Source: an uncultured Bacteroidota bacterium (GTDB lineage: Bacteria; Bacteroidota; Bacteroidia; Bacteroidales; P3). From it: DNA of 64,000 bases. A program made the translations under genes and the position numbers. Shown one piece after another: positions 3,140 to 35,441 of the stretch (the stretch's first letter is position 1; every line of letters starts with the position of its first letter). Location: the NCBI GenBank assembly GCA_902776365.1, contig CACYPU010000006.1:28062-92061 (forward strand), in the 5' to 3' direction. The notes under the pieces are model-generated. The model did not search any database. It was not told the DNA's origin and saw only the letters and a list, made by a program, of their open reading frames with translations.

Positions 3140-4130
3140 AGGTGGTGTAGAGTTTATCTTTGATATTTTCCCAACGGTAGCTGGCGACGGCTTGATGAGC
3201 CTGTTGGATGATGGTCAATGCGATTGCTTGGTTTTCGATGGTCCATAGCATTTTTTGTGCCAGTTCGTTGTGATTGTTGTTGTCGAATAGCAGTCCGTTG
3301 TTCCCGTTCTTAATCATGTAGGGTACTCCTCCAACGCTTGATGAGATGACTAGCAGGCCAGCATTCATGGCTTCGAGAAGGGATACTGGCATATTGTCGA
3401 CTGTCGGCGAGGAGAGGAGGATGTCTGCTTGGTCCAAGTGATGGTAGATGTCTTGATTATCTACTTTACCAGTGAAAGTGACATTTTGCAGTCCCATATC
3501 TTTAACCATCTGTTTCAGTACTGCATGCTGAGAGCCGTCACCGACTAGCGTCAGGGTTGATTTCGGTAATTCGGTTAGAGTTTTTTGGAAGGCACGTAGG
3601 ATGCAGGGAATGTTGTAGAGGATTTCGTGCGCACGGGTGCAGATGAAGTGGGGCTTCAGCGTCTCGCGTTGGCGGAACAGCGACTCGTCGAGCTCGATGA
3701 TGTTGGGAATGATGGTGTAGGGAAGGTGGTGTTTTTCGAAGATTTTGGCCAAGAATCCAGAGAGGACAATATTGGTATTGGTGCGGGTGAGGTAATGGCG
3801 TACCAGTTTAGGATGTCGGTCGAAGAAGGATTCGCCACCACCGCCATGATAGGTCAGCACCAGGCGTTTCTTCAGACGTCTGCCAATAGTGATGCCGATG
3901 ACGGCAGGAAGAAAACCCCAACTGGAGCAGCAGTGGATATGCAGCAGGTCGTAGTGTCTCGCCACAGAACGGAGTCGCATGGGAAGCAGTAGACGACGTA
4001 GCACAGAGGCCTTGGTGGAGAAGATGTCGGCGGTGTGGCCCTCCTCACGCAGATGCTTCTGCAGGAGTTCCACTTGCCCGGAGATGCCCCCGACCCCTGG
4101 CTTATAATTGCATATCAACAGAACTTTCAT
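3123..4130 (-). CDS. GT4 family glycosyltransferase
   Basis: A 335-residue GT-B enzyme. The N-terminal Rossmann half begins MKVLLICNYKPGVGGISGQV. The C-terminal glycosyl-transferase group 1 half carries VGDGSQ, GKVDNQDIYHHLDQADILLSSPTVDNMPVSLLEAMNAG, in which the E of LLEAMNAG is the usual nucleotide-sugar contact. Predicted cytoplasmic retaining transferase of unknown donor. Its start codon lies at the outer edge of the left inverted repeat around the neighbouring GxxExxY gene. Confidence 0.85.
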   Translation of the reverse strand: MKVLLICNYKPGVGGISGQVELLQKHLREEGHTADIFSTKASVLRRLLLPMRLRSVARHYDLLHIHCCSSWGFLPAVIGITIGRRLKKRLVLTYHGGGGESFFDRHPKLVRHYLTRTNTNIVLSGFLAKIFEKHHLPYTIIPNIIELDESLFRQRETLKPHFICTRAHEILYNIPCILRAFQKTLTELPKSTLTLVGDGSQHAVLKQMVKDMGLQNVTFTGKVDNQDIYHHLDQADILLSSPTVDNMPVSLLEAMNAGLLVISSSVGGVPYMIKNGNNGLLFDNNNHNELAQKMLWTIENQAIALTIIQQAHQAVASYRWENIKDKLYTTYGISA

Positions 4131-4160
4131 GTCTCAACCAAAACTAAAAAAACAATCAAA
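4129..4160 (+). repeat. Inverted repeat, left arm of GxxExxY cassette 1
   Basis: The plus strand reads atgtctcaaccaaaactaaa followed by aaaacaatcaaa. It matches the reverse complement of 4616-4647 at 30 of 32 positions, with mismatches at 4138 and 4156. It starts inside the CAT that is the start codon of the GT4 gene and ends 10 nt from the GxxExxY stop codon. Confidence 0.85.
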
Positions 4161-4170
4161 ACGACCTGTC

Positions 4171-4590
4171 TTATCCTAACCATGCAGGAATTTCTTTACT
4201 GTAACCATAATTATACACTTTGTGTATGCTATGTCCGATAGAAAAGTTTTCAGTATTGAAGTTAATCAAGTAACCGATGGGTTTGTTGGTAAGTTTAAGG
4301 TATGTCATTAATTGTTTAAAATGGACTTTTTCAAGTTGTGAAACTGATTTTAACTCTAGAATCATGCAGTTCTCGACAAGAATGTCCAATCGGAATGCAA
4401 GTCCAAGGTCTTGGCCAAGATATTCAATTTTAATTGGAACCTCTTGCTCTGCCCTCAAATCAGCATTATCCAGCTCAATCATTAACGCTCGTTGATACAC
4501 GGATTCAAGTAGGCCCGGACCAAAGTGCTGATACACATTCATCGCACACCCTAACACCTGATATGATAGTGTTGTAGAATAATCAGTCAT
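4171..4590 (-). CDS. GxxExxY protein, copy 1
   Basis: A 139-residue protein with the signature GLLESVY (about 26-32), followed by RLDILVEN and ILELKSV, which resemble the D...(E)xK core of PD-(D/E)XK nucleases. The family is widespread in Bacteroidota with no established function. The frame is open up to an ATG at 4647, but alignment with the second copy in this window starts at MTDYST, so the ATG at 4590 is preferred. The gene interrupts an otherwise seamless capsule operon and is bracketed by inverted repeats. Confidence 0.8.
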   Translation of the reverse strand: MTDYSTTLSYQVLGCAMNVYQHFGPGLLESVYQRALMIELDNADLRAEQEVPIKIEYLGQDLGLAFRLDILVENCMILELKSVSQLEKVHFKQLMTYLKLTNKPIGYLINFNTENFSIGHSIHKVYNYGYSKEIPAWLG

Positions 4591-4615
4591 ATTGTGTCTT
4601 GAGAAAAACGTGTTA

Positions 4616-4647
4616 TTTGGTTGTTTTTTTAGTTTTGTTTGAGACAT
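4616..4647 (-). repeat. Inverted repeat, right arm of GxxExxY cassette 1
   Basis: Partner of 4129-4160. The arm lies 25 nt upstream of the preferred GxxExxY start, and its outer end overlaps the TGA stop (4649-4647) of the polymerase-like gene. Confidence 0.85.
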
Positions 4648-28930: not shown

Positions 28931-29857
28931 TTACAATTTATGTAAGAAGTCTTCGTAGGCTAGTCGGATGCCGTCCTCCAATTCGGTTTTGTAGGTCCAG
29001 CCCAAGGCTGTGGCTTTGCTGACGTCGAGGAGTTTTCGGGGGGTGCCGTTAGGACGGGAGGCATCCCAGAGTATCTTACCTTCATAACCCACCACCTTGG
29101 CGACAGTTTCTGCCAGTTCACGGATGGTGAGCTCTTTGCCGCTGCCGGCATTCACTGTTTCGTTGCCGCTGTAGTTGTTCATCAAGAAGACACAGAGTTC
29201 TGCCAAATCGTCAACATAGAGGAATTCTCTCAGTGCGCTGCCATCGCCCCAGCAGGTGACGCTCTCGGCTCCGGACAGTTTGGCTTCATGGAAACGGCGT
29301 ATCATGGCCGGCAGTACATGGCTGTGCTCAGGGTGGTAGTTGTCGTTGGGGCCATAGAGGTTGGTGGGCATGACAGAGATATAGTCGGTGCCGTACTGTC
29401 GGTTGAGGTACTCGCAGTATTTCAAGCCGCTGATTTTGGCCAGCGCATAGGCTTCGTTGGTGGGCTCGAGGCTCGAGGTGAGCAGACAACTTTCGGGCAT
29501 GGGCTGCGGTGCCAGACGAGGGTAGATGCAGCTGCTGCCAAGAAACTCGAGTTTTTTGACTCCGTTCTGCCAGGCGGCATGGATGACGTTCATCTCGAGG
29601 GTCATGTTCTGGTACATGAAGTCGGCCAGCTCGGCGCTGTTGGCGGCGATGCCACCCACCTTGGCGGCGGCGAGGAAGACGTACTCGGGCTTCTCTTGCG
29701 CGAAGAAGGTTTCTACGTCTGCTTGGCGCGTAAGGTCGAGTTCTGCATGGGTTCTCAGCACCAGATTATTGTAGCCTTTGCGTTGCAGTTCCCGTACAAT
29801 GGCACTACCTACCATGCCCCTGTGTCCCGCCACGTAAATTTTGCTATTTTTCTCCAT
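28931..29857 (-). CDS. fcl: GDP-L-fucose synthase
   Basis: A 308-residue extended SDR: GHRGMVG (11-17) binds NADPH; GSSCIYP supplies Ser108; YALAK gives Tyr137 and Lys141. [16 protein letters not shown] and [18 protein letters not shown] are Fcl-specific. Catalyses epimerisation and reduction of GDP-4-keto-6-deoxymannose made by gmd. The GxxExxY cassette lies between gmd and fcl. Confidence 0.95.
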
Positions 29858-29885
29858 TAAACGCTAATGATCCTTTTTTTATTAA

Positions 29886-29915
29886 AACGTTAATTGCCGT
29901 TAATTGGCCGTTAAT
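29886..29915 (+). repeat. Inverted repeat, left arm of GxxExxY cassette 2
   Basis: Three copies of a 10-11-bp unit with the core ccgttaatt (29886-29896, 29897-29907, 29908-29915). It matches the reverse complement of 30374-30403 at 27 of 30 positions and lies 28 nt upstream of the fcl start codon. Confidence 0.85.
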
Positions 29916-29925
29916 GTTCCATTAA

Positions 29926-30369
29926 TTATTCTTCATATTCCATTGGTACTGGTCGCATGTTACGGTCAACAACAAAACAACGATTGGTGGTTTTATCGTA
30001 GGCCCAGCGTTCGCCTACAAGACACTCTTCGCCAAAATTGATAAGTATACCCAAGGGTTTACGTGCAAGACGTAGGTAGTTGCACAACTGAGCACGGTGA
30101 CCCGCAACAAGTTCAGAGACGGATTTAAGTTCCACTATTACATCGCCTACCACCATATCCATCCGATAGGTTTTCTCTAAGAGGTGCTGCTTGTAGTATA
30201 TCTTCAATTCCTGTTCACGTACACTTTCAATACCTCTGTCCTTCAACTCCAGTTGTAATGCTTCTTGATACACGGGTTCAAGCAACCCATAGCCTAGTTC
30301 AGAATGGACAGTCATTGCCGCACCGATTATTTGATACACGAGGTCTTTATACTCAAACAAATAAACCAT
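29926..30369 (-). CDS. GxxExxY protein, copy 2
   Basis: A 147-residue protein with GLLEPVY (28-34), YRMDMVVGDVIVELKSV and a C-terminal YDKTTNRCFVV stretch. It shares the overall plan of copy 1 at 4171-4590 but is diverged, so the two are not a recent duplication. The D...ELK arrangement resembles a PD-(D/E)XK core; function unknown. Starts with ATG 4 nt inside the right inverted repeat. Confidence 0.85.
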   Translation of the reverse strand: MVYLFEYKDLVYQIIGAAMTVHSELGYGLLEPVYQEALQLELKDRGIESVREQELKIYYKQHLLEKTYRMDMVVGDVIVELKSVSELVAGHRAQLCNYLRLARKPLGILINFGEECLVGERWAYDKTTNRCFVVDRNMRPVPMEYEE

Positions 30370-30373
30370 AAAG

Positions 30374-30403
30374 ATTAACGGATAATTAACGGTAATTAAC
30401 GTT
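30374..30403 (-). repeat. Inverted repeat, right arm of GxxExxY cassette 2
   Basis: Three units attaacgg(ta), spaced 11 and 10 bp, partner of 29886-29915. The arm encodes the last codons of gmd (NVNYR and stop), so the cassette border lies inside the gmd 3-prime end. Confidence 0.85.
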
Positions 30404-31477
30404 ATCTTCAGTAAAGTGGAGTTTGCGGACTTTCTTCATGTCGTGCTGGACCATAATCTTGACGAGCTCTTCAAAGCTTGTCTTGTTGGGGTTCCAGCCT
30501 AAGACAGTCTTCGCTTTCGTGGGATCACCGAGGAGTTGTTCGACTTCCGCCGGACGGAAATACTTGGGATCCACCTCTACGAGCACCCTGTCAGTTGCTG
30601 TATCGATACCTTTCTCGTTCACCCCTTCGCCTTCCCAGCGCAGCTTGATGCCGGCCTCCTTGAAGGCCAGCGTGCAGAATTCGCGCACGGAGTGGTACTC
30701 GCCGGTGGCGATGACGAAGTCGTCGGGTTTGGGTTGCTGAAGCATGAGCCACATGCACTCCACATAGTCCTTGGCGTAGCCCCAGTCACGCAAGGCGTTG
30801 AGATTGCCGAGGTAGAGCTTGTCTTGGAAGCCTTGAGCGATGCGGGCAGCGGCCAGCGTTATCTTGCGAGTGACGAAGGTCTCGCCACGCCGTTCACTCT
30901 CGTGGTTGAAGAGGATGCCGTTGCTGCAATACATGCCGTAGCTCTCGCGGTAGTTCTTCATCATCCAGAAGCCGTACTGCTTGGCCACACCGTAGGGCGA
31001 ACGCGGGTAGAACGGCGTCGTCTCGCGCTGTGGTACCTCCTGCACCTTGCCGTAGAGCTCGGAGGTGGAGGCTTGGTATATGCGGCAGGTGCTGGCAAGT
31101 CCCGCGATACGCACAGCCTCCAGTAGACGCAGCACACCTACGGCGTCGGCCTCAGCGGTGAACTCGGGCACATCGAAGGAGACCTTCACGTGGCTCTGTG
31201 CCGCCAGATTGTATATCTCGTCGGGACGTATCTCGCTGATGATGCGGATGAGGCTGCTGCTGTCGGTCATATCGCCCCAGTGGAGTTCGATGAGACGCTT
31301 CTTCTTCATGTCGCGCACCCATTCGTCGAGGTAGAGGTGCTCGATGCGGCCGGTGTTGAACGAGCTGCTGCGGCGCAGCACTCCGTGCACCTCGTAGCCT
31401 TTCTCGATGAGGAACTCGGCCAGGAATGAGCCGTCCTGTCCTGTAATGCCCGTGATAAGTGCTTTCTTCATATTCAT
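30386..31477 (-). CDS. gmd: GDP-mannose 4,6-dehydratase
   Basis: A 363-residue SDR enzyme: [14 protein letters not shown] (10-23) for NADP, TSE (138-140) and YGVAK (Tyr162, Lys166) as catalytic residues, and [16 protein letters not shown] typical of Gmd. First step of GDP-L-fucose synthesis; partner fcl lies downstream. The ATG at 31477 overlaps the previous stop (ATGA). The final codons lie in the inverted repeat of the GxxExxY cassette. Confidence 0.95.
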
Positions 31478-35243: not shown

Positions 35244-35315
35244 ATTTTTTACAAGGTATCCAAAATTTCGATGCTTATTTCAGGGAACACCGCAAGTCAT
35301 TCCCAAGTTCACCAT

Positions 35316-35404
35316 TTGTCCGTTCGTTGTCCGTTCGTTGTCCGATACTTGTACGATAAATCATCGTACAAGTATCGGACAACTATCGTACAAATAACGG
35401 ACAA
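35316..35404. repeat. Mirror-symmetric array of eight 11-bp repeats
   Basis: Four units read TTGTCCGTTCG, TTGTCCGTTCG, TTGTCCGATAC, TTGTACGATAA at 35316, 35327, 35338 and 35349. Four inverted units end at 35371, 35382, 35393 and 35404 (for example GTATCGGACAA). Spacing is exactly 11 bp on each side. The inner part forms a perfect 21-bp inverted repeat (35337-35357 and 35363-35383) with a 5-nt loop. It lies about 75 bp upstream of the capsule promoter and downstream of the peptidase terminator. Function unknown; nothing else is seen in this 444-nt gap beyond the promoter, leader and terminator listed. Confidence 0.9.
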
Positions 35405-35441
35405 GTGCTTAAGGATGTGTCAACTGGATGGCAGGAAAAGG

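Follow-up and report, generated by a model that had tools for sequence, protein, structure and literature searches.

Both GxxExxY genes in the 64,000-nt stretch analysed here (the window; contig CACYPU010000006.1 of an uncultured Bacteroidota bacterium of the Bacteroidales lineage P3) are bordered by inverted arrays of short repeated units, and comparison with related genomes indicates that gene and arrays belong together. The reading we favour, with a probability of roughly 0.6, is that a compact nuclease and its cognate inverted arrays form a REPtron-like unit, in which the protein would recognise and cut its own arrays and would spread together with gene-less array pairs. It appears very probable that the gene together with its arms makes up a single unit which has spread to many sites, and the odds that the nuclease itself drives this spread are about even. 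We infer the mobility of the unit from comparison between genomes; recognition, cleavage and cleavage-driven spread are proposals.

Copy 2 of the gene (29926..30369, minus strand, 147 aa) lies between gmd and fcl. Its left arm (core 29886..29915, plus strand), on the gene's downstream side, and its right arm (core 30374..30403, minus strand), on the upstream side, are identical at 27 of 30 positions, as an initial annotation of the window had described, and among 1000 dinucleotide-shuffled versions of the flanking DNA none equalled their score of 27 (shuffle maximum 18). A repeat search extended the arms to 29873-29918 and 30371-30416 at 78%. Overlooked at that stage was that short units of ~9-11 nt (CGTTAATTA / CCGTTAATTAT / CCGTTAAT) are directly repeated within each arm, the left core being an array of CGTTAATT units. 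The right arm also forms the end of gmd, as had been noticed: the five final codons and the stop of that gene (NVNYR*, 30386..30403, minus strand) lie inside the arm and are composed of its sequence, whereas relatives with an empty site carry other gmd endings, e.g. LHLREQLD*.

Copy 1 (4171..4590, minus strand) shows the same architecture. Its left arm (4129..4160, plus strand) pairs with the right arm (4616..4647, minus strand) at 30 of 32 positions, again with 0 of 1000 shuffles reaching an equal score, and its arms are likewise unit arrays, in a degenerate form. The start is more likely Met20 at 4590, since the mechanical open reading frame (ORF; 4171-4647) extends into the arm. The repeats of the two copies are unrelated (arm-to-arm local scores of 3 and 5) and the proteins diverged (41% identical in the family alignment), both in agreement with the initial annotation. 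Its block lengths (518 bp for copy 2, 519 bp for copy 1) and 10-nt gap from arm to stop codon were likewise correct. A fixed unit of this size and gap as a family trait was nevertheless rejected, as other copies vary: over 121 loci, blocks spanned 465-833 bp (5th-95th percentile; median 568), with 7 of 121 within 515-522 bp, and the 10-nt gap, measured to arm ends defined by alignment, occurred once. The equal dimensions of the two window copies look like a coincidence.

The architecture recurs, with other repeats, far beyond the window. GxxExxY genes were gathered from the window's own genome (three matches), a genus sample, a phylum sample and public genomes of other groups, with 80 further places added; PF13366 was matched in 71 of the 99 genomes sampled from the genus and in 101 of the 198 sampled from the phylum. 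The seeds of the hidden Markov model excluded proteins whose plus-strand reading had stops. The 164 distinct domains, less four dropped for want of 250-bp flanks, gave 160 entries, of which 121, from Bacteroidota and other phyla, had inverted flanks scoring above all 60 shuffles (genus 93/118, phylum 18/30, public genomes 10/12). The public-genome entries included Planctomycetes, Chloroflexi, Spirochaetes, Lentisphaerae, Kiritimatiellaeota and a Wenzhouxiangella. None of 36 other ORFs in the window, taken as a control, was positive for inverted or direct repeats. Purely direct flanking repeats were considered and rejected, direct similarity exceeding the shuffles in 29 of the 118 genus entries against 93 for inverted similarity. 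Among the 121 positives, arms matched themselves best at a lag of 9 nt, followed by 10, 18 and 11, and examples of such arrays are AACGGCGAATTACTCGAATT (L030), AAATCTTGTAAATCTTGTAAAT (L124), CACACAGAAACCACAGAAATCACAGAAA (L019) and AACCGCAGATTGCGCAGATT (L046). The lag analysis and the arm comparisons described below omitted the 39 entries without a significant inverted repeat. Several GxxExxY genes have decayed between intact neighbours, one at gmd-fcl by a frameshift (L050) and others with reported stop codons (the L005 and L139 locus); the arms of L050 and L139 are still significant.

Arms vary with the protein they flank. In 6512 pairs of sites, homology between the flanks was undetectable (protein E > 1e-3, DNA score no higher than 25); across these pairs the likeness of the arms rose with protein identity (Spearman 0.355, against a maximum of 0.051 in 500 permutations; 0.353 under a weaker flank filter), from 1.25 below 40% identity through 1.31 (40-50%), 1.59 (50-60%) and 2.48 (60-70%) to 3.43 (70-100%). 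Similar arms were found at unrelated sites for proteins 70-100% identical, and not for those 40-50% identical. Since arms track the protein even at unrelated sites, arms and gene would constitute one unit. Within a unit the two arms stay similar (mean scores 25-33), and their likeness to the arms of the most closely related unit elsewhere falls to background level (12.6-12.7) at 50-60% protein identity, a comparison in which preselection of loci for similar arms favours the within-unit value. The relation between arm and protein is one of co-variation, corresponding to the co-evolution of protein and repeat in REPtrons, and does not demonstrate binding.

The gmd-fcl junction was compared at 30 of the 56 listed places among genus loci. 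GxxExxY lies between gmd and fcl at seven of these loci, the two genes are adjacent at 20, and fcl is missing at three. The adjacent genes are separated by -37 to 82 nt (from alignment ends), insufficient for two arms, and neither arm is present. The seven occupied loci carry, by eye, at least four arm types: that of copy 2, that of L048 and L051, that of L050 and L052, and that of L053 and L057, whose arms are mutually related and possibly of two types. At L053 the gene-less downstream array has been multiplied into several near-identical tandem hairpin units (CCACGGATTTGACAGATAAAACGGAT ... ATCCGTGTTC). Of the two window genes here, gmd encodes GDP-mannose 4,6-dehydratase (30386..31477, minus strand; TIGR01472, 567 bits) and is the upstream neighbour of copy 2, and fcl encodes GDP-L-fucose synthase (28931..29857, minus strand; top family NF047922 at 481 bits, narrowly missing the cut-off of 500) and lies downstream.

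The copy-1 site, matched in 50 of 99 genomes, was read at 15 loci, of which six were occupied (at least three arm types), six were empty, the start codon of the second gene following the stop codon of the first after 4-5 bp, and three had a different downstream gene. The copy 1 element runs from GTCTCAA to TTGAGAC (4131..4645, minus strand; limits judged by eye from the junction sequences), and without it the two sides would join as TTCTGAT/ATGAAAGT, which matches the empty L257 junction. There the junction reads TTCTGATATGAAAGT, compared with TTCTGAT, GTCTCAA...TTGAGAC, ATGAAAGT at copy 1, so that the target duplication would be none or at most 2 bp (AT); this rests on the short junction, as the upstream gene of L257 is merely 74% identical in DNA. 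At two occupied loci, L256 (G087) and L258 (G073), the upstream array is enlarged by longer repeated units (CTAACCGAACTACCCGAAACAAGCCGAACTACTTCTTCT), giving junctions of 883 and 869 nt. The presence/absence polymorphism at matching sites that is expected of a mobile element was seen between species, with seven occupied against 20 empty loci at gmd-fcl and six against six at the copy-1 site.

The initial annotation had proposed that each insertion carries or creates its own inverted repeat, perhaps by copying the target, and had suggested examining empty gmd-fcl sites for an ancestral arm and comparing arm with target over many loci. Its first half stands in that units carry their own repeat. 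The second does not, as neither arm is present in the 20 empty loci and arm similarity goes with the protein, not the site, where flanks are unrelated. Empty sites already holding both arms, or one fixed terminal repeat shared by other copies, would have spoken against it as well; empty sites lack both, and the terminal repeat is constant per protein clade, not family-wide.

Arrays also occur without the gene. Among the 99 genus genomes, 14 hold the pattern AATCYTGGAAATCYTGGAAAT, with 38 occurrences between them, and every one of the 14 has PF13366 (P 0.006). In the phylum sample of 198 genomes, CACRGAG triplets are present in 21, each of which also has PF13366 (P 2.3e-7). The P values are optimistic through genome relatedness and come from the two array patterns tested; a reversed CACRGAG control gave one match in one genome. 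GxxExxY was absent from 19 of 30 fetched stretches around AATCYTGGAAATCYTGGAAAT, some of them overlapping, and from 14 of 20 around CACRGAG, and several of the gene-less AATCYTGGAAATCYTGGAAAT-type arrays are ~130-bp palindromes. Some such mini-elements lie in frame within coding genes. One lies within a gene that we take, from its sequence, to be mfd in G094 (L187) and G009 (L196, L282), where L284 has just GNER between equal flanks. Another lies within the CCA-adding enzyme (CCA-transferase, cca; named by sequence recognition and backed by PDB matches) of G012 (L190, L296), is eroded in G015 (L297) and is missing from L302, L303 and L307. In other genomes both insertion sites correspond to loops whose length varies.

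Two further array populations were observed. In G083 there are 12 matches to a AATCTTGG array, some of which form composite units of ~242 bp that recur across several contigs (L083, L172 and other G083/G050 loci). In the window itself, positions 35308-35412 are palindromic, with four 11-nt units on one side and four inverted ones on the other (TTGTNCGWTAN four times, a 5-nt loop and ATCGTACAAGT four times). This array type has 76 two-unit and 63 three-unit pattern matches in its own genome and, among the other 98 genus genomes, two matches in G036 only; the inverted layout with a short loop was seen at 11 of 11 sites read. These 11-nt arrays may be a recently expanded gene-less relative or a separate family resembling repetitive extragenic palindromes (REPs).

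Both window proteins belong to the GxxExxY family (TIGR04256, cut-off 35; PF13366 or PDDEXK_3, cut-off 22), with 131.4 and 130.4 bits, respectively, for copy 2 and 136.5 bits, in a match beginning at residue 27, and 133 bits for copy 1. Residues E31, D71, E80-x-K82, Q94 and Y98 are invariant in a 53-sequence alignment that includes copy 2. An AlphaFold2 model of copy 2 (predicted local distance difference test score 94.6) found its nearest PDB folds among PD-(D/E)XK nucleases of the Cas4, RecB and lambda-exonuclease type, with the qualification that families missing from the structure-match lists are not thereby excluded. Fold, catalytic D...E-x-K and Q-x3-Y together place the protein in the Cas4/RecB-like branch of the PD-(D/E)XK superfamily, Q-x3-Y after E-x-K being what we take to be the mark of that branch. 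The GxxExxY protein is a predicted nuclease of ~130-150 aa with a modelled fold nearest the Cas4/RecB type, although it is much smaller than those enzymes and shares no sequence-profile match with them: a search of the PDB by the sequence profile A1 returned no chain at E up to 10. At E <= 0.001, PF13366 was the only Pfam family in both window proteins, with no HuH, transposase or PF04754 family.

Other affiliations were also considered. A known defence system was rejected, PADLOC giving weak Cas4 matches for copy 2 (E 0.002-0.008) and none for copy 1. Plasmid carriage was likewise rejected, with relatives of the copy 2 protein in 8 of 72,556 plasmid records, as was viral carriage, since the viral_contigs collection gave seven pattern stretches and no confirmed relatives, the phage collection lying outside this search. 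Among 67 scanned of 112 upstream ORFs, 14 were glycosyltransferase 2 and eight epimerase family members, the others including housekeeping genes. The neighbouring longest ORF lay on the gene's strand in 101 of 113 cases downstream and 76 of 112 upstream, by a crude ORF picking that is wrong in places (e.g. L053).

A possible mechanism starts from the sole gene of the unit, encoding the predicted PD-(D/E)XK nuclease, and from its flanks of short direct-unit arrays (usually 9 nt, also 10-11); as the arrays on the two sides are oppositely oriented, the unit ends in inverted arrays. The protein would recognise the repeated units that flank its gene and cut the folded or single-stranded palindrome, by which the unit and gene-less array pairs might be duplicated into, or transferred to, further positions. 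Targets would mostly be intercistronic junctions, with a target duplication not above 2 bp. At gmd-fcl, the unit would have arrived at the 3' end of gmd, providing its five last codons and stop.

Several observations weigh against this mechanism. The evidence is throughout a comparison between species representatives, in which excision, insertion and cleavage are unobserved. Entries are not independent, as some share orthologous sites and the broken L050 gene is counted twice. In the phylum sample 12 of 30 loci, and in the genus sample 25 of 118 entries, had no inverted repeat above the shuffles, and direct similarity beat the shuffles in 8 of 30 phylum and 1 of 12 public entries besides the 29 genus entries mentioned above. 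Even among the preselected loci, left-right arm likeness exceeded that to the nearest relative's arms in just 72 of 120 cases, and relatives at 80% identity or more oftener retain the ancestral side. Some array genomes lack an arm-matched GxxExxY; the one PF13366 gene of G012 has other arms, and no cognate gene is known for the 11-nt arrays of the window's own genome. The copy 2 array has a single further match there, with one mismatch, and since its reversed control also has one, nothing indicates recent spread of copy 2 in its own genome.

Among other explanations, the nuclease gene could be operon cargo, for example of a defence or toxin-like kind, with arrays acting on RNA or expression as a gene-enclosing stem, in processing or insulation, or as operators. 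The mostly shared orientation with neighbours, the ability of complementary arms to pair in RNA and the weak Cas4 matches of copy 2 alone would fit. A stem, however, requires complementarity and not repeated units within each arm, where the self-similarity at lag 9 is strong; cargo that could be insulated is absent from gene-less arrays away from GxxExxY and from the copies in frame within mfd and cca, and multiple arm types at one junction are left without explanation, so that we regard this account as rather unlikely. Alternatively, the arrays could be an independent population, REP-like or resembling miniature inverted-repeat transposable elements (MITEs), served by another enzyme and harbouring GxxExxY genes as passengers or homing-type intruders. 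Arrays do outnumber genes in several genomes, G012 has a gene-less array and no GxxExxY bearing arms of the corresponding type, and the many 11-nt arrays of the window's own genome have no matching gene. This second account is nonetheless unlikely given that arms co-vary with the protein at unrelated sites and flank the gene on both sides in 121 of 160 entries, that both tested array patterns are confined to PF13366 genomes, and that empty sites lack arrays.

Less probable still is a homing-type element, whose nuclease would cut the empty junction and whose block would be copied by repair, with arms that are incidental. That certain junctions (gmd-fcl and the copy-1 site) have been occupied repeatedly and that a long target duplication is lacking agree with homing, but related units occur at many places where no homology of the flanks was detectable, and neither gene-less arrays nor protein-matched arms are predicted. 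The copying of arms from the target at each insertion, e.g. by snap-back synthesis, as the initial annotation envisaged, could appeal to the differing arms of the two window copies and to the arm that is part of gmd. We reject it as contradicted by the empty gmd-fcl and copy-1 junctions, in which neither arm is found, and by the co-variation, with several arm types per target and related proteins bearing related arms at unrelated targets.

The REPtron-like unit thus favoured has partial parallels among known systems, although the initial annotation could match it to none. In the excerpted text of PMC8266576, a REPtron (REPIN-RAYT) is a small gene for TnpA_REP, a HuH Y1 transposase, bordered by palindromic repeats, with gene-less cognate repeats dispersed in the genome and repeats that co-evolve with the protein; tnpA_REP is mostly single-copy, with no evidence of mobility. 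The layout described there is shared in the one small gene, the palindromic borders, the gene-less cognate copies and the repeat-protein co-variation. Bordered genes (121/160) and cognate copies elsewhere (gene-less in 19/30 and 14/20 stretches) were both found, whereas the copy 2 array itself has, beyond a single one-mismatch match, no copy elsewhere in its genome. The correspondence is incomplete, as GxxExxY is a PD-(D/E)XK protein and not a HuH/Y1 transposase; lacking the HuH domain, the unit is not a REPtron by membership. Its arrays are moreover of ~9-nt units, compared with REP hairpins of 20-50 nt, and it is often multicopy at variable sites, unlike the mostly single-copy tnpA_REP of that source.

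Rpn (YhgA-like, PF04754) proteins are also PD-(D/E)XK nucleases, and the independent introduction of rpnC between panC and panD, as reported in a passage of PMC5350276, recalls the occupation of gmd-fcl; PF04754, however, was unmatched in the window proteins, and the sections of PMC5350276 at hand describe no flanking inverted arrays for Rpn. Rickettsia palindromic elements, according to an extract of PMC10969869, are short palindromes in frame within coding genes, and thus similar as in-frame insertions but different in host and sequence. BrickBuilt, a MITE of Porphyromonas gingivalis, is likewise a mini-element of Bacteroidota, in which a tandem repeat lies between small inverted ends, but according to the abstract of PMC4596501 its units are 23 nt, its location is always intergenic and no gene-bearing partner is named. 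A DDE insertion sequence does not fit, with no transposase family and no duplication above 2 bp at copy 1. In the open literature searched, which names GxxExxY in two papers and PDDEXK_3/PF13366 in one, nothing linked this family (TIGR04256 included) to repeats, and no relevant paper contained any of the array sequences looked for; subscription papers lay largely outside that search, and an earlier notice is possible.

At somewhat less than even odds, we tentatively go further and propose that GxxExxY genes are an unrecognised class of selfish element, with a Cas4/RecB-like nuclease as sole protein and inverted arrays of ~9-nt recognition units as ends, which would move itself and gene-less palindromes, some in frame in essential genes, its lineages continually re-matching arrays to nuclease. 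The many short arrays of the CACAGAG, CGCAGATT and CACGAAT types in several phyla would then be the footprints of this element. If the REPtron-like reading is true, a second type of enzyme would lie behind a REPtron-like lifestyle, and in-frame palindromic insertions resembling those of Rickettsia would have a candidate explanation in these bacteria. An uncharacterised nuclease family, common in the genus and the phylum yet scarcely mentioned in the open literature searched, would gain a testable role, and a large class of dispersed repeats a candidate enzyme.
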